In this document: positions 14,118-37,872 of the stretch, piece after piece | How the letters are laid out: every line of letters starts with the position of its first letter | Position numbering within the stretch: the stretch's first letter is position 1 | IMG/VR virus record: IMGVR_UViG_3300030389_001563 | Coordinates: 1 to 49,161 of that record | Source: a virus | Strand: one strand, 5' to 3' | Length of the DNA stretch: 49,161 nucleotides | Translations under genes and position numbers: made by a program | Notes under the pieces: generated by a model | What the model was told of the DNA's origin: nothing | Seen by the model: the letters and a program-made list of their open reading frames with translations, nothing else | Database searches by the model: none

Positions 14118-14194
14118 AAAAAAGTGTTTGACAACTCTTTTATGTTGCTGTAACTTTGTATGTATAAAACGAATCACTCAATGGGAGACAAAAA
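14118..14194 (+). promoter_or_regulatory. repeated promoter-leader, copy 1
   Basis: AAAAAAGTGTTTGAC (14118-14132) contains -35 TTGACA (14128-14133). A 17-base spacer and TAACTT (14151-14156) follow. The leader holds AAAACGAATCACT and AATGGGAG (14180-14187), whose GGGAG ends 7 bases before the ATG at 14195. Three other copies occur at 15938, 35243 and 35963. Confidence 0.85.
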
Positions 14195-14419
14195 ATGAAC
14201 TTATCAATCGCAATCAAAAGAGACATCGTAGCTCTTAGAAAAACTCACAGAGAAGCAGGTGAAAAATCTTGGTATGTAACAGAAGCTCAATTCAAGACCT
14301 TCGTAGAAGGTTTGATAAAAAAGCACAGAGTCAATGATACTTACAACTTTATCAGAACTCTTGAGATGATAATTACACAAGAAGTCTACTACGGCATCGG
14401 TGTAAGAGTAGACAGTTAA
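14195..14419 (+). CDS. small protein, first gene of leader cassette 1
   Basis: 74 residues, mixed charge and helical (MNLSIAIKRDIVALRKTHREAGEKSW). It has no recognised family and no membrane segment. The gene follows promoter-leader copy 1 and is followed at once by a G7/C6 hairpin, which suggests that it is expressed apart from, and more strongly than, its downstream neighbours. It is a likely early host-interaction protein by position only. Confidence 0.65.
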   Translation: MNLSIAIKRDIVALRKTHREAGEKSWYVTEAQFKTFVEGLIKKHRVNDTYNFIRTLEMIITQEVYYGIGVRVDS

Positions 14420-14425
14420 TTAACA

Positions 14426-14456
14426 GGGGGGGTAACACCCCCCATAACAATGGGAG
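14426..14456 (+). terminator. G7-C6 hairpin followed by AATGGGAG ribosome site
   Basis: GGGGGGG (14426-14432), loop TAACA and CCCCCC (14438-14443) form a strong stem without a U-tract. AATGGGAG at 14449-14456 then serves the gene at 14463. The hairpin may be a partial terminator, a processing site or an mRNA stabiliser. Confidence 0.55.
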
Positions 14457-14462
14457 AAAAAA

Positions 14463-14657
14463 ATGCACTACGCTATACAAATTCAAGAAAAAGATTTTAT
14501 GAGAGGTTGTTGTATATCTTCTCGAAATAAAGAAGTTTTGTTAGAAAAAGCAAGATTTGAAACCTTTGGAGATTTAGTCCGTCATCTCAATGATATGTAC
14601 CTACGAACTGAATGGCATCGTAAAAGATTTACCATCTTAGGCATAGAGGAGCAGTGA
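14463..14657 (+). CDS. small unknown protein
   Basis: 64 residues. The start is fixed by AATGGGAG with a 6-base spacer. The sequence (MHYAIQIQEKDFMRGCCISSRN ... FETFGDLVRHLNDMYLRTEWHRKRFTILGI) looks like a small alpha/beta fold. No family was recognised. It lies after the hairpin of cassette 1 and is followed by a short series of overlapping small genes. Confidence 0.6.
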   Translation: MHYAIQIQEKDFMRGCCISSRNKEVLLEKARFETFGDLVRHLNDMYLRTEWHRKRFTILGIEEQ

Positions 14658-15937: not shown

Positions 15938-16012
15938 AAAAAAGTGTTGACATGATTTTGTTATCTGCTAATTTTGTAGGTACAAAACGAATCATTTAAT
16001 GGGAGAAAATAA
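15938..16012 (+). promoter_or_regulatory. repeated promoter-leader, copy 2
   Basis: AAAAAAGTGTTGAC contains -35 TTGACA (15947-15952), a 16-base spacer and TAATTT (15969-15974). The leader AAAACGAATCATTTAATGGGAG ends at 16005, 7 bases before the ATG at 16013. It differs from copy 1 by one base in the upstream block and by its downstream gene. Confidence 0.85.
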
Positions 16013-16420
16013 ATGACTAAATACACAAAAGAAGAAATGGTACAAACTTTCAGTGACTTCTACAAAGAAGTAAATGGGTTTAGACCTTCACCAGACCATG
16101 CGTTTTACTCAATGGACGTTGAGAGTATGAACAAAGAATGGGATTACTTAGGTGAACAGCTTGCTGAAAACGATAGACGAGAAGCAAAGATGCAGGACAA
16201 AGCAATTAAAAGTTTCAATGATTTGATTGCTAACCTTATCAAGATAGGTGCTAGAGGTAGAGCACAGGCTATCGAATGGTTAATGGATGCAGAGGATTTT
16301 TTTGACCCATACAGCCATGATACTGGTGACACACTGTGCTATCGTTACAGGTTGCCCTACTCTTATGGACAAGAGTTCGATCAAGTAATCATCAACAGAA
16401 GAAAGAGGAGAGGGGTTTAA
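16013..16420 (+). CDS. unknown protein, first gene of leader cassette 2
   Basis: 135 residues. The N-terminal part is helical (MTKYTKEEMVQTFSDFYKEV), the centre is a charged helix pair (NDRREAKMQDKAIKSFNDLIANLIKIGARGRAQAIEWLMDAEDFF) and the end is basic (INRRKRRGV). The stop codon lies in the centre of a perfect palindrome (16408-16428). No family was recognised. Position after the repeated leader indicates an early, highly expressed protein. Confidence 0.65.
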   Translation: MTKYTKEEMVQTFSDFYKEVNGFRPSPDHAFYSMDVESMNKEWDYLGEQLAENDRREAKMQDKAIKSFNDLIANLIKIGARGRAQAIEWLMDAEDFFDPYSHDTGDTLCYRYRLPYSYGQEFDQVIINRRKRRGV

Positions 16421-19133: not shown

Positions 19134-19204
19134 AAATGTTCCTTTGTTTATTCCGACAAAAGGAAGTCATTGGTCAGAGGATTAATCCCCCTCTGACCTT
19201 TTTT
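19134..19204 (+). ncRNA. candidate two-hairpin small RNA with terminator
   Basis: In a 207-base gap between two minus-strand genes the plus strand carries TTGTAT (19105-19110), a 17-base spacer and TAAAAT (19128-19133). Next come a hairpin TTCCTTTGT/ACAAAAGGAA (19139-19165, with one bulged A) and a terminator (19172-19204). The predicted transcript is about 70 bases and has no start codon with a usable ribosome site. Transcription is inferred. Confidence 0.4.
19172..19204 (+). terminator. rho-independent terminator, plus strand
   Basis: GGTCAGAGG (19172-19180) and CCTCTGACC (19190-19198) form a perfect nine-base stem, followed by TTTTTT then CTTTT. It faces the plus strand although the flanking genes are on the minus strand. 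It may end a small RNA or read-through from the early operon. Confidence 0.8.
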
Positions 19205-28508: not shown

Positions 28509-31174
28509 TAATTATATCTAACCTCTGCTTTAAGTAATGATATATTCGGTGTTATATTTGTTGATGTACTTCTTAACTGTACCTTAAAACGAAAATATCT
28601 TCCAGTAAAGAAACCTGCTCTAAATCTCTGATAAGTGCCTGTAAAGGAATTGGAAGTGGATGGTTCGATAAAAAACTGAACATCAGAGTCTTTTTGTTGA
28701 GATGTTGTGCCAGATAAATCATCTACGTTTCCAGTCAATTGATCCCAAAGAGTGCTACCTCCACCAATACTATCCCAGTCATTGATACTACCTGCTGTAT
28801 CTAATCGTATCGTATTTACAATAATTTCTGCTCTTACAAGTTTCGTTGACCCAATGTCTATATCCGAAGAAAATATATATTCACCTGTGTTTAATATTGG
28901 GTCACTGGAGTCCGAAACATCTGTCATTCTCAGGGCACTACTTGTCACCTGCAAATTTGTTTTATTACCAGAAAAAGAAGGACTTTCTGTTTGTGTCGCT
29001 ACGTTACTAAATTGCACCAAACTTGTTGTAGGTATGGCAACAGCAGATGTAAAGTTTGCTGATGCTACGTTTGTTTTGTCGTAGGCTCTTATCATATATG
29101 TGCCAGAACGAGCAGGAACTGAAAAGGTGGTAGCAGGTCTAGGTACTTTTTCTGTGTCAGTTGTGGAGTTTGCCCAAGTAGCACCAGATGTTTCGCTAGA
29201 AAACCTTATGGTATAAAAAGATAAATCTAAATCAGCTATGGCATCCCATCCCAATATTACATTATCTCCAGAAACAATTGCATCAAAATTTACAACGTCA
29301 GCAGGTGCTACACCCTGTCCTGCGATATTTGCCGTTGTTTGGTTGTAAGTACCCTTAACACCTAATGTACTTATCGCTCTTGATCGCACAACAAAAGAGC
29401 CATCTTCCACATCAAAGACTTCATATATTCCTAACTCTCCAGTACCTACTACTTTAAAATCGGAATCAGCAGATTTTCTAAACTCAACTTCAACAAAATC
29501 AATCCTTGAAGCATCCACTGTGCTCATAGATGTTGTAATTATAAGAACCTGTGAGACTTTTTCGTTGATAACTCTCAACTCGCTAGTAACAGTAATACCT
29601 ACAGATGGAACGCTAAATGGGTCTAACAAAGTAGTATTGTCGGACTCAAATTGTGTTTCTTCTGCATCCCAGTCAAAAACAGCACTGGAAATTTCCCTTA
29701 AAGTGAGTGCTATCGTAAGACCTTGCTGTAAATCTGGTGTGAATACCCAATTTTGAACTTCAAAAGTCTTGGCACTAAAACCTAGTCTACTATTTGTGAG
29801 TTGTATTATATCACCAACTTGCACCTGCAAAGCTTTCATAGAAAACGTACCTTTGACAACTATTTGCTGTCTATTCTTGAATAACGCTATTTTAGCTATC
29901 CTCTGTGCCATAGAACTTGTGTTTGTAAATGGTAATTCTAAGTCGATAATGTTTTCTTCATTGTTATCTATGCTCAAAAATGTGCTTGATCGTATCTCTG
30001 GATAGTCTGTATTTTGAAAATTTGTTTCTGCACCTCTAAACTTTCCTCTGACTACGTTGAAGTTATCTCTCCGACTTTGCCGTGTTTGAATAGCAAGATT
30101 TCCTCTTAAATCATCTTCTGTAAGGGTGATAACTGGACTAGTATATGAACCTGCTTTTACTCTCCATTTGCCCTGTGAATACCACATTATTCCTGCCATA
30201 GACGCTACAAGCTTTTGTAAAACAGTTCTTGGGTTTACATTTGTGGTGAGAGCACCGTTAACAGTGTATTTAGATTGTGTTCCCCCACCTAAAGAAGCAG
30301 CCAGATTTACAGTTGTGTCACACACCGTCTGAGCAGAAGCAAAAGCAGTATCATCTAAATCTCCTGTAGGAATATTTAGTCCGTAAGAGCTTGTTAGATA
30401 ATCTCTTATGACTAGAGCAGTATTATCACTCCATGCTGTTGCTCCTGTATTAACATTATACAACTTTTTTCCTTTGATAAGTGCTGTTAGACTTGGCTCT
30501 CCGTTTGGAAAAGCATCTGCTTGAAACTCATATCGCACATAAATATAAGTAATGTTTCTCAGTTTATGATCTGATGTCCATTTTGTACTTTCTGAAACTA
30601 GATCACTGTCTCCTGTTGTTTGATCTCCCAGATGTATTTTTACTCTTATGAACTTGTCACTTCCGTCTACATATTTTGTAGGTGATGTAACAAAATTGTT
30701 TCCGTCAATAGTAAGCTCTTCACCATTCAAGTAAATTTTAGACACTTCTTCACAAATGTGTCCTGCCATAGCATAAACCACATGAAGAAATTTATTATTA
30801 TCTGTTACTTCTTTAAATACTATAACCCCACCAACTCTAGTCTGACCGTATATAATCTGATGATCGGCAGCACTTGCTATACCAGATATATTGTACCCCC
30901 CAACTGTTGTCGTACCATGTGATGTAGCTCCACCATTAGATGAACCCAGTCCGTTAAGATTTGGCATCTCTGGTTGTGGAGCAAGGGCATTTAAAATATA
31001 GTTGGTTGCAACAGATGTAGCCACATATGTTGCAATTTTAGCTACAGTAGCCGTACCTCCAATATAATTAAACGCAGTTACTGCGTAATATACTATAGTT
31101 GATGGATTGGCATAGGTTACGCTTGGTATAAGGCATAATGCCAAAGCAAAGCTAAATATTAGTCTACAGTCCAA
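28508..31174 (-). CDS. tail tip attachment protein (gpJ/GTA gp15-like)
   Basis: 888 residues from TTG 31174, with GGAG about 8 bases upstream. Central features are DHQIIYGQTRVGGVIVFKEVTDNNKFLHVVYAMAGHICEEVSKIYLNGE, GDPSLTALIKGKKLY-like text (NGEPSLTALIKGKKLYNV), LVIRDYLTSSYGL and later fibronectin-like stretches. These fit gpJ-type hub proteins that form the tail tip and fibre base. The first 22 residues (LIFSFALALCLIPSVTYA) look like a signal peptide, which is odd for a virion protein and may be a hydrophobic hub segment. It overlaps the NlpC gene by 16 bases. Confidence 0.88.
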   Translation of the reverse strand: MDCRLIFSFALALCLIPSVTYANPSTIVYYAVTAFNYIGGTATVAKIATYVATSVATNYILNALAPQPEMPNLNGLGSSNGGATSHGTTTVGGYNISGIASAADHQIIYGQTRVGGVIVFKEVTDNNKFLHVVYAMAGHICEEVSKIYLNGEELTIDGNNFVTSPTKYVDGSDKFIRVKIHLGDQTTGDSDLVSESTKWTSDHKLRNITYIYVRYEFQADAFPNGEPSLTALIKGKKLYNVNTGATAWSDNTALVIRDYLTSSYGLNIPTGDLDDTAFASAQTVCDTTVNLAASLGGGTQSKYTVNGALTTNVNPRTVLQKLVASMAGIMWYSQGKWRVKAGSYTSPVITLTEDDLRGNLAIQTRQSRRDNFNVVRGKFRGAETNFQNTDYPEIRSSTFLSIDNNEENIIDLELPFTNTSSMAQRIAKIALFKNRQQIVVKGTFSMKALQVQVGDIIQLTNSRLGFSAKTFEVQNWVFTPDLQQGLTIALTLREISSAVFDWDAEETQFESDNTTLLDPFSVPSVGITVTSELRVINEKVSQVLIITTSMSTVDASRIDFVEVEFRKSADSDFKVVGTGELGIYEVFDVEDGSFVVRSRAISTLGVKGTYNQTTANIAGQGVAPADVVNFDAIVSGDNVILGWDAIADLDLSFYTIRFSSETSGATWANSTTDTEKVPRPATTFSVPARSGTYMIRAYDKTNVASANFTSAVAIPTTSLVQFSNVATQTESPSFSGNKTNLQVTSSALRMTDVSDSSDPILNTGEYIFSSDIDIGSTKLVRAEIIVNTIRLDTAGSINDWDSIGGGSTLWDQLTGNVDDLSGTTSQQKDSDVQFFIEPSTSNSFTGTYQRFRAGFFTGRYFRFKVQLRSTSTNITPNISLLKAEVRYN

Positions 31175-35176: not shown

Positions 35177-35326
35177 GCTTGTAAATACAAAAAAAAATCA
35201 GCCTAAAACCCCAGGAACTACAAAAAAAAGTAAAAAAACATTAAAAAAGTGTTTGACTACTACAATAAAGTGTTTATATTAATAGATATGAAAACGAATC
35301 ACTTTAACACAATGGGAGAAAAAAAG
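35177..35326 (+). promoter_or_regulatory. repeated promoter-leader, copy 3, with A-tracts
   Basis: Poly-A tracts (35190-35240) precede AAAAAAGTGTTTGAC (35243-35257). The -35 is TTGACT (35253-35258), with a 16-base spacer and -10 TATATT (35275-35280). The leader contains GAAAACGAATCACTTTAACA, then AATGGGAG (35311-35318), 8 bases before the ATG. The gap also separates this island from the minus-strand protease gene. Confidence 0.85.
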
Positions 35327-35626
35327 ATGATTAACTTTGTAAACGGACATGAATACACAGGAATTAACGTAACTACACTTCTTGACCTTGACTATAACGA
35401 AGGAGACGAGTTTTGCACATTTAGACAAGCTCTTGATTTCTACAAGATCAAAGGCAAGCAGATGAAAGGTACAAAGACTGTAGCAAGCTTAGTGTTTATG
35501 TCAGAGGACGAAGAAGAAGATAAAGAGACCAAAGAGGTAAGCAAAAAGAAAAAGAAGAAGTACTTCAGAGTTTTCGAGAGAACTTCTTTAGAAGCAAAAT
35601 TAGCAGAGAATGGAGTGAGGGTTTAA
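35327..35626 (+). CDS. ArdC N-domain-like protein, first gene of leader cassette 3
   Basis: 99 residues from ATG 35327, placed by AATGGGAG; the longer frame from 35249 runs through the promoter. The text GDEFCTFRQALDFYKIKGKQMKGTKTVASLVFM ... KKYFRVFERTSLEA resembles the N-terminal ssDNA-binding domain of ArdC antirestriction proteins (F.QA...G..V.KG ... V.F ... FRVFN). An acidic-then-basic insert (DEEEDKETKEVSKKKKKK) separates the two parts. The metallopeptidase half of full ArdC is absent. Antirestriction or DNA binding is an inference. Confidence 0.55.
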   Translation: MINFVNGHEYTGINVTTLLDLDYNEGDEFCTFRQALDFYKIKGKQMKGTKTVASLVFMSEDEEEDKETKEVSKKKKKKYFRVFERTSLEAKLAENGVRV

Positions 35627-35634
35627 CCCTCACT
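35614..35634 (+). terminator. perfect 21-base palindrome over a stop codon
   Basis: AGTGAGGGTT, T, AACCCTCACT: ten-base arms centred on the TAA stop of the preceding gene. It has the same design as 16408-16428, with a shared GAGGG.TTTAA.CCCTC core. No U-tract. Confidence 0.6.
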
Positions 35635-35669
35635 TCACGTTGGATGAACAAATGGGAAAGGAGCTTACC

Positions 35670-35933
35670 ATGATATATCCGAACAAAATGCCAAGTGTCA
35701 GAATGATGCTTGACTCTCCTCTTGGAAAAACGGTTTTAGCAGTGATGTCTAAAGCCACAAATGGTGACGAAAGAGCCATGACATCTCATATCCTCAAGAT
35801 CAAAGAACTTGAAGATATGTTCGTAAAAGCTTTTCTGGAAGCTTACAAAGAAGCTCTTAAGATCGAGCTTGAGAAGAAAAACCAAGAGAAAAAAACTCTT
35901 GGTGATTTTCTAGGAAAGAGCCTAAATTACTAG
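35670..35933 (+). CDS. small helical protein
   Basis: 87 residues from ATG 35670, which has AAAGGAG 6 bases upstream; a TTG at 35640 is less likely. The sequence (MIYPNKMPSVRMMLDSPLG ... ILKIKELEDMFVKAFLEAYKEALKIELEKKNQEKK) is helical and ends in a charged tail. No family was recognised. It follows the palindrome of cassette 3. Confidence 0.6.
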   Translation: MIYPNKMPSVRMMLDSPLGKTVLAVMSKATNGDERAMTSHILKIKELEDMFVKAFLEAYKEALKIELEKKNQEKKTLGDFLGKSLNY

Positions 35934-35962
35934 GCTCATGCAAAAAAGAGTAGTTGAACATC

Positions 35963-36043
35963 AAAAAAGTGTTTGACTACTCTACTCTGTATGGTATACT
36001 AGTTATATGAAAACGAATCACTTTAACAAAATGGGAGAAGTCG
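35963..36043 (+). promoter_or_regulatory. repeated promoter-leader, copy 4
   Basis: AAAAAAGTGTTTGAC (35963-35977), -35 TTGACT (35973-35978), a 16-base spacer and -10 TATACT (35995-36000). The leader GAAAACGAATCACTTTAACA and AATGGGAG (36030-36037) follow, 6 bases before the ATG at 36044. Copies 3 and 4 are nearly identical in the leader. Confidence 0.85.
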
Positions 36044-36328
36044 ATGACTACAATTCGTAAAAACACAAAACACATCAAGACCCCTCTACCGAAAGGTAGA
36101 CCTCTTGGTAAGAAGTGGAAGAAGGCACAGCTTTTTTCCATGACCTACTGCCCAGACTCATTAGGTGGAGATCACCGTTCTATCTGGGCACTCGTTGGGC
36201 ACAAGTGGGTGCACTGCTCCACTAGCCAACTGTGCAAGTCTGGTGGCAACCGTAAAGCCACTGTATCTCGACAGGCTTGGGAGAAGCTTGTCTCAACCAA
36301 AAACAACACCGTGCAGGTGCTTGCTTAA
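36044..36328 (+). CDS. small basic protein, first gene of leader cassette 4
   Basis: 94 residues. The N-terminal 35 are very basic (MTTIRKNTKHIKTPLPKGRPLGKKWKKAQ). The centre has CPDSLGGDHRSIWALVGHKWVHCSTSQLCKSGG with three cysteines and histidines that could bind zinc. The composition suggests nucleic-acid binding. No family was recognised. A long G9/C7 hairpin follows the stop. Confidence 0.6.
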   Translation: MTTIRKNTKHIKTPLPKGRPLGKKWKKAQLFSMTYCPDSLGGDHRSIWALVGHKWVHCSTSQLCKSGGNRKATVSRQAWEKLVSTKNNTVQVLA

Positions 36329-36332
36329 CACA

Positions 36333-36365
36333 GGGGGGGGGATTACCCCCCCAACCTAATGGGAG
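36333..36365 (+). terminator. G9-C7 hairpin followed by AATGGGAG ribosome site
   Basis: Nine G (36333-36341), loop ATTA and seven C (36346-36352) form a very strong stem. CTAATGGGAG (36356-36365) then serves the gene at 36372. This repeats the design at 14426-14456. Confidence 0.55.
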
Positions 36366-36371
36366 AATGAA

Positions 36372-36587
36372 ATGGAAAATGTAGTAAAAAGAAAAGTGTT
36401 TTTTAAAAACCGTATGAAAAGATTGTTTGTGCTTACAGACGAATGGTCAGACAAGGGATACTGGATTGCGAAAGATAAGGGTCAATGGCTGTTAGTTCAA
36501 TACTCTTTCTTTAATCAAGTAGGTGTATCGTCAAATCTCGAAGGCATTGACAGACAGTTAACTAAGCTGAAAGCACAGGGAGTATAA
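36372..36587 (+). CDS. small unknown protein
   Basis: 71 residues, start fixed by AATGGGAG with a 6-base spacer. The sequence is basic and strand-rich (VVKRKVFFKNRMKRLFVLTDEWSDKGYWIAKDKGQWLLVQYSFF) and ends in a short helix. No family was recognised. It is the first gene after the hairpin of cassette 4. Confidence 0.6.
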   Translation: MENVVKRKVFFKNRMKRLFVLTDEWSDKGYWIAKDKGQWLLVQYSFFNQVGVSSNLEGIDRQLTKLKAQGV

Positions 36588-36588
36588 A

Positions 36589-36789
36589 ATGAAAGTAAGA
36601 ATTACACACACCATCGAACTGTCATACGAACAAGAAAGTATACAGAAATATCTCTATCAAAGAGACTGCGATACCAATAACGTCAGCTTTAGGGAATACC
36701 TTCAGAGTTACTTCATAGCTGATGGGGAGTTTATGATGCAAAGAAGAGCAGAACAATATCTAGAGGAGATGAAACATGAAGACAGTTAA
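36589..36789 (+). CDS. small unknown protein
   Basis: 66 residues (MKVRITHTIELSYEQESIQKYLYQRDCDTNNVSFREYLQSYFIADGEFMMQRRAEQYLEEMKHE). The end overlaps the next gene by 14 bases. It starts one base after the previous stop. It is mostly helical after one strand. No family. Confidence 0.6.
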   Translation: MKVRITHTIELSYEQESIQKYLYQRDCDTNNVSFREYLQSYFIADGEFMMQRRAEQYLEEMKHEDS

Positions 36790-37333
36790 AGGTGGTACTC
36801 TTGAGTTCATGGGCAATGTCTCCATAAACGACAACTTCATAAATGAAACCTACAAACGTATAGTAGACTGGGTGGAGAGGGAGCATGGTAAAACTCTTAC
36901 AGAGCAAGAGAAGCAGGAGTGCATGGAGAGTGCTAAGACAATATCTCAACGAGAGTCGATGGGCAGGATTTATAAAAATAATATATTTACCGTCAACTTT
37001 TACACTGGCAGTAGTGCCGATGACATGGTGCACCATGAGGAGCTTAAAGGAAAGTGTGTCTGGCTCTCCATCAAGAGGAACGATAAGACCACTAGGATTG
37101 AGTGGTTCGATAAGATGCAGATCGTCCGTGCTCTACTGGGAGATGACTGGATGGGCATGGAGTTGTATCCCCCACAAAAGTTCATGGTAGATACAGCTAA
37201 CCAGTATCACATCATATGTATCCCACCAGAGTATGTAGATGATTTCCCATTCGGATGGAAACACCGTGAGATCAACAGCACTAATAGTAAAGGTGGTTAT
37301 CAAAAATTAGGTCAAACCTATCGAGGAGATTAA
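36776..37333 (+). CDS. conserved phage protein (DUF7694-like C-terminal part)
   Basis: 185 residues. The C-terminal half (CVWLSIKRNDKTTRIEWFDKMQIVRALLGDDWMGMELYPPQKFMVDTANQYHIICIPP.YVDDFPFGW) resembles a widespread phage module I associate with DUF7694: W.hlSI...D, dW..mQ.i, ElyP....vDtaNqyH, P.Gf. The N-terminal part (GNVSINDNFINETYKRIVDWVEREHGKTLTEQE) is helical. Function is not established. It ends the plus-strand island; the candidate antisense RNA begins 27 bases later. Confidence 0.6.
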   Translation: MKTVKGGTLEFMGNVSINDNFINETYKRIVDWVEREHGKTLTEQEKQECMESAKTISQRESMGRIYKNNIFTVNFYTGSSADDMVHHEELKGKCVWLSIKRNDKTTRIEWFDKMQIVRALLGDDWMGMELYPPQKFMVDTANQYHIICIPPEYVDDFPFGWKHREINSTNSKGGYQKLGQTYRGD

Positions 37334-37359
37334 TTATTTATTTCTCATAATGTTTACTG

Positions 37360-37465
37360 TATAATTCGAACACCCCTGCCACCTGCCTTCGGACTGCTCG
37401 AAATTTGGCAGGGTACACTAATCACCGATGACTTACTCCCATTAGTTGTCGGTGATTTTTTATTT
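37360..37465 (+). ncRNA. candidate antisense RNA with anti-RBS loop
   Basis: TATAAT (37360-37365) is followed by an about 90-base non-coding stretch. Hairpin one pairs CCCTGCCA (37374-37381) with TGGCAGGG (37406-37413). Hairpin two (37420-37457) is a 14-base-pair stem including two wobbles, with the ten-base loop TACTCCCATT (37434-37443), then TTTTATTT. CTCCCATT is the exact complement of AATGGGAG, the ribosome site used at six phage genes; the match to the 36358 copy extends to ten bases (CTAATGGGAG). The -35 is weak. It could also be the 3' end of the island mRNA. Confidence 0.55.
37420..37464 (+). terminator. rho-independent terminator of the plus-strand island
   Basis: AATCACCGA (37420-37428) pairs with TCGGTGATT (37449-37457), extended inward by five more pairs, then TTTTATTT. 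It ends the plus-strand island before the converging minus-strand genes. Its loop is the anti-AATGGGAG sequence. Confidence 0.85.
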
Positions 37466-37605
37466 GAGCAATTCCAAAGGATTGTAATCAATGAACGGTA
37501 TGAAAATTAGATTATCCCAGTCCGTGACTACAAAGAACAGGGAGCATATAAAAATAAGCAATATAAATAATACTGTCTCTAACCCATCTGGTCTACGGTC
37601 TTTTC

Positions 37606-37872
37606 TCACTTTACTTTTTCGTAAATCTCTTCTTTAACCAGTTTTTTATTTGCTGATATAGCTTTTTTAACTTCTGTAACAAATGTCTCTGCCTTTGCTT
37701 TCGTTAGATTTAGGTCTTTGAAGTATAGGTCTTTCCAATTATCGAACTTCTGGGCATAGTCCTTTATTGCTTCATTGACCGTTTTGTACTTATAAAAATA
37801 GATACCACTTACTGTGCCTTTGATGTTTTCATTAAGATTCCGTATGCCAAATGTGCTGTTTGTTAGTCTCAT
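37606..37872 (-). CDS. candidate immunity protein 2, paralogue of the next gene
   Basis: 88 residues. The C-terminal part (YAQKFDNWKDLYFKDLNLTKAKAETFVTEVKKAISANKKLVKEEIYEKV) aligns with the neighbour's YIQKFESVDELQIWGLPETDVIVNRFIELIDDAIKKGSKIKNERLLEEF. Both lie after a MuF protein with a metallopeptidase-like tail domain. In MuF polymorphic toxins the immunity gene follows the toxin. No family was recognised, so the role is by context. Confidence 0.5.
   Translation of the reverse strand: MRLTNSTFGIRNLNENIKGTVSGIYFYKYKTVNEAIKDYAQKFDNWKDLYFKDLNLTKAKAETFVTEVKKAISANKKLVKEEIYEKVK

Follow-up and report, generated by a model that had tools for sequence, protein, structure and literature searches.

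The hairpin at positions 37420–37457 on the plus strand is probably a one-way Rho-independent terminator, with a loop whose complementarity to the ribosome sites of six phage genes is most likely coincidental or without demonstrated role. The window, the whole stretch of DNA that was analysed, is a 49,161-base IMG/VR virus record. It encodes a tailed phage, with genes for terminase, portal, head morphogenesis, major capsid, tape measure, tail fibres, and primase/helicase. Late genes are on the minus strand, and two small clusters of plus strand genes are located at about 10.3–18.2 kb and 35.25–37.33 kb. The first gene of the latter module (35327–35626, plus) is similar to the N-terminal domain of the anti-restriction factor ArdC (Pfam PF08401, E 5e-7). 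The features at the end of this module are as follows.

37360–37365, plus strand: a TATAAT with TTTATT at the −35 position and no −35 box, probably not a promoter
About 37374–37413, plus strand: upstream hairpin CCCTGCCA...TGGCAGGG with inner stem UUCGG/CUCGAA
37420–37457, plus strand: intrinsic terminator hairpin with a 14-bp stem and the 10-nt loop TACTCCCATT
37434–37443, plus strand: loop TACTCCCATT, with unpaired probability of at least 0.9; its CTCCCATT (37436–37443) complements AATGGGAG
37456–37465, plus strand: U tract TTTTTTATTT, which contains the stop codon (TTA, read as TAA on the minus strand) of the convergent gene
37460–37609, minus strand: small transmembrane-like late-strand gene of 49 aa with a hydrophobic stretch, which ends in the U tract and converges on the terminator

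Folding bore out the 14-bp stem and ten-base loop of the original prediction, with two of the pairs being G-U. The stem is formed by AATCACCGATGACT and AGTTGTCGGTGATT, has a minimum free energy of −17.5 kcal/mol by itself, and is followed by TTTTATTT, a T-rich tail. The extra hairpin predicted between the TATAAT and the terminator was also found. A stable, G+C-containing hairpin with a U tract directly behind the stem is what defines a Rho-independent terminator, and this one occupies the 126-nt gap separating two convergent stop codons (37333 on the plus strand and 37460 on the minus strand). A plus strand gene of 185 aa stops at 37333, before the hairpin, which faces the minus strand head morphogenesis and portal genes. 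The hairpin, the U tract, and the position between convergent genes give good support to a transcript that ends here. Ordinary Rho-independent terminators between convergent phage genes have the same stem, loop, U tract, and position between converging stops, but differ from this hairpin in that its loop complements a repeated leader octamer. The 49-aa gene is unlisted, and its GTG start overlaps the end of an 88-aa gene; related frames (FFxVTDWxNLxFxPF) are present at four other loci (L029, L031, L032, and L033).

A terminator scan of the window yielded three plus strand candidates, two of which (19172–19198 and 37420–37457) have a solid U tract, and no strong terminators on the minus strand. 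The third candidate lies at 31004; its tail is weak, and it is probably due to chance. Both strong terminators face the minus strand operon. We propose that the hairpin would stop transcription of a small, probably early, plus strand module set head-on in the late operon, and that termination would keep antisense transcripts from running into the head genes. Late transcription should be able to pass the hairpin, since the minus strand has no U tract.

The octamer AATGGGAG occurs six times on the plus strand of the window (14180, 14449, 15998, 35311, 36030, and 36358) and once on the minus strand, where it lies in the loop of the terminator hairpin; shuffled sequences yield 1.4 occurrences in all. 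Each plus strand copy lies 5–8 nt upstream of an ATG. Exactly six plus strand genes thus have a ribosome site complementary to the loop, confirming the match on which the original prediction was built. Four of the six leaders have a common promoter with AAAGTGTT(T)GAC and then a common 5′ stretch, AAACGAATCA, and the other two come after a G-run/C-run hairpin. The leaders, and the module that holds three of them, are arranged as follows.

14121–14195, plus strand: promoter and leader with AATGGGAG (14180), 74-aa gene
14449–14463, plus strand: AATGGGAG leader behind a G/C hairpin, 64-aa gene
15941–16013, plus strand: promoter and leader with AATGGGAG (15998), 135-aa gene
35249–37333, plus strand: cassette module of small genes, ended by the terminator and syntenic with related records L002 and G001
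35246–35327, plus strand: promoter (AAAGTGTTTGAC..TATATT) and leader ATGAAAACGAATCACTTTAACACAATGGGAGA, 99-aa ArdC-N-like gene
35966–36044, plus strand: promoter and leader with AATGGGAG (36030), 94-aa gene
36332–36372, plus strand: G/C hairpin and leader CTAATGGGAG (36356–36365, ten-base match), 71-aa gene

The ten-base match at 36356–36365 is exact, but two stem bases (AG) must open for it to form. Several genes in the 35.25–37.33 kb module use other Shine-Dalgarno (SD) sequences. The pattern of a G/C hairpin followed by AATGGGAG was used to scan for the same SD arrangement in other phages. Several other groups (L009–L026) place AATGGGAG(A) as a ribosome site directly behind a G-run/C-run hairpin, and because these groups look unrelated, the octamer appears to be a common enough phage SD. 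An inverted repeat, GAGTAGTTGAACA-TCAAAAAAG-TGTTTGACTACTC (about 35946–35980, plus), overlaps the −35 region of the 36030 promoter and also occurs in L002; it is a possible operator.

Comparison with L002 offers an explanation for the repetition of the octamer. Between the two records, genes have been gained or lost at three places, and AATGGGAGAA marks or adjoins all three joints. At the joint at 36026–36039 (L002 1618–1626/1963–1971), the homologous blocks to the left and right have AACAAAATGGGAGA as their exact overlap. L002 has here a promoter leader, one extra gene, and then a G/C-hairpin leader with AATGGGAGAAGTCG, whereas in the window the promoter leader and the G/C-hairpin leader are fused at AATGGGAGAA. 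At 36356–36380 (L002 2290–2316), the L002 leader leads directly into the 185-aa gene, and the window carries two more genes. At 35636 (L002 1091), the blocks diverge three bases before the AATGGGAGA of L002. Cassette shuffling at or beside these joints accounts for the repetition of AATGGGAGAA, and AATGGGAG would be an SD sequence on leaders that are copied and shuffled along with gene cassettes. Comparison of the two genomes suggests that leaders may act as recombination joints for the cassettes, and viable joints have to fall near gene boundaries in any case. The phage encodes an Erf-like annealing protein together with an exonuclease; in phages, recombinases of this class have been linked to relaxed homologous recombination (PMC3945230).

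Relatives were compared for conservation of the terminator and its loop. L002 is 96–98% identical to the window over shared parts, with an identical hairpin and loop and five AATGGGAG leaders, and it is uninformative on covariation because the loop is identical. Segment 37347–37474 (128 nt) is unchanged in L002; random placement of the mismatches leaves a run of at least this length in 22% of cases (P = 0.22), which is not significant. The syntenic relative G001 (42 kb, behind L031) is about 67–84% identical over most aligned blocks. It retains homologues of the leaders with other ribosome sites (AAACGAATCATTTAGGAGA and AAACGAACAACAGAAGGAAA; AAACGAATCATTTAGGAGAATATCATG and GGAAACGAACAACAGAAGGAAAACCATATG) and has no terminator after its homologue of the 185-aa gene, no loop complementary to its leaders, and no AATGGGAGA. 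The terminator is likewise absent from L029 and L032–L036. L003 and L004, with 51–59% identity in the 185-aa protein, lack both the leader set and the terminator. Among 12 related records, AATGGGAGA occurs in L002 (five times) and in the record of L004 (once) only.

In the records compared, the AATGGGAG leaders and the loop co-occur in one close pair only, which is one evolutionary state and therefore gives no covariation test. Pairing that is kept or covaries was not seen in relatives, with L002 being identical and G001 having leaders but neither the terminator nor a matching loop. The original prediction held that leaders kept without a covarying loop would speak against it, and G001 partly does so. 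IMG/VR scans using the leader pattern, the upstream-hairpin sequence, and the 185-aa, 71-aa, 599-aa, and 74-aa proteins, as well as an alignment of the 88-aa protein, turned up no further independent copy of the terminator. Three other loci (L005, L006, and the genome-contig match L028) have one isolated leader match each, probably by chance; the L005 sequence resembles an unrelated small phage. Annotated phages gave no match at DNA level and none for the 185-aa protein. We infer that the loop probably has no pairing function.

A different reading, unlikely but the strongest of the alternatives, is that the terminator loop, lying 3′-terminally in the module mRNA or in a fragment cut from it, pairs with AATGGGAG leaders in the same mRNA and in the other plus strand cluster. 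Pairing of this kind would block ribosomes and perhaps invite RNase III, resulting in negative feedback or timing. An exact 8-nt (up to 10-nt) complement to six leaders is improbable for one given loop. Of random 10-mers drawn with window composition, 0.9% contain an 8-nt complement to one or more of the six leaders and 0.08% to three or more (P about 0.0008). When the letters of the loop are shuffled, the control proposed with the original prediction, 33 of 5000 sequences reach the duplex energy summed over the leaders. Counting the two strong terminators, the match rate for the window is roughly 0.2%, before allowing for the reader's freedom in motif, strand, and window. The match was nonetheless chosen after the fact, and scanning many windows will yield such matches by chance. 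Terminators across all loci fetched numbered 15, too few for a rate. The other strong plus strand terminator (19172–19198) has the loop ATTAATCCC, in which TAATCCCC complements GGGGATTA, part of the G/C hairpin near 36336, indicating that C-rich loops find matches easily.

Pairing energies allow an antisense action. The loop is open and complementary to the SD region, as expected of an RNA directed at SD sequences. Duplexes between the loop and each leader have about −12 kcal/mol, compared with −7.3 kcal/mol for an anti-SD taken as ACCUCCUUA, an assumed sequence that may not be that of the host. Both the loop TACTCCCATT and the leaders were computed to be mostly unpaired, and with these duplex energies antisense action is physically possible. 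Further points against a plain terminator are that a random loop hits at least three leaders so rarely; that the loop is C-rich, 10 nt long, and open, like known SD-binding RNAs; that the two-hairpin segment (90 nt, −34.9 kcal/mol) has far more structure than a terminator requires (z = −5.9 versus shuffles); and that AATGGGAG leaders and loop co-occur, though as one evolutionary state. Against antisense pairing are its absence from the syntenic G001 despite homologous leaders, the other SD sequences of several genes in the same module, and the fact that one part of the match, CUCC with GGAG, would form with any SD; L002, being identical, is uninformative. The original prediction of shut-off or timing by an RNA or a 3′ mRNA loop is partly supported: pairing is physically possible and the transcript end has good support, but the device is not conserved in G001.

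The same chemistry is proven in other systems, and the statement that no such design is known was too strong: the icaR 3′-UTR, RNAIII, and phage P1 c4 RNA pair a loop or 3′ end with ribosome sites. In Staphylococcus aureus icaR, a C-rich UCCCCUG near the mRNA 3′ end pairs with the mRNA's own SD in cis or trans, and this is backed by compensatory mutation and RNase III evidence (PMC3868564). It differs in being a single, experimentally supported chromosomal gene, whereas the present case is six phage leaders and a terminator loop known from sequence alone. C-rich hairpin loops 7 and 13 of S. aureus RNAIII bind ribosome-binding sites of several mRNAs (PMC2837412). The likeness lies in a C-rich hairpin loop aimed at several ribosome-binding sites, but RNAIII is a dedicated and experimentally proven regulatory RNA and here there is one 10-nt loop in a putative RNA. 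The c4 RNA of phages P1/P7 and the sar RNA of P22 have complementary stretches directed against the start of translation of one phage gene, with c4 targeting the region around the ant ribosome-binding site, probably with loops (reviewed in PMC12197685). Each has one experimentally shown target (ant), and neither is a terminator loop whose target octamer is shared among leaders. Still less likely than pairing itself is the broader design it would imply, in which the terminator loop of an early module is a shared antisense element against one octamer in the leaders of all genes to be shut off, and new cassettes that join there would come under that control too.

A separate small RNA of about 90 nt, running from the TATAAT to the terminator and acting in trans on the six leaders, is very improbable. 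The TATAAT lies about 54 nt upstream, the segment forms two stable hairpins with the z-score given above, and it is unchanged in L002. However, the conserved run is not significant, a promoter scan of the window did not list the TATAAT, and its TTTATT has no match to the strong TTGAC −35 box shared by the phage's own leader promoters. The TATAAT and transcript end of the original prediction hold, then, and its separate promoter is not supported, with no promoter of its own found for a small RNA at 37360. Rfam 15 at gathering scores gave no match, although no match is to be expected for a new RNA. TTCGAACACCCCTGCCACC was also considered as a tRNA/attP site and rejected, as ARAGORN finds no tRNA. 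Least credible is a role on the minus strand, where the late mRNA loop would display AATGGGAG as the real SD of a 23-codon GTG frame (37354–37425): the frame is open with an SD spacing of 10 nt, but it is tiny, has no relative found outside L002, and has its SD held in a hairpin loop.

If the plain terminator reading is correct and the loop does not act, the repeated leaders still illustrate joints for swapping small early genes, and the case is a caution that a single striking loop-leader match, picked out while reading a window, is weak support for regulation. If the loop does act, one terminator would govern an entire regulon, its members marked by a portable octamer at the ribosome site, and mosaic phages would gain simple timing control over newly captured genes.
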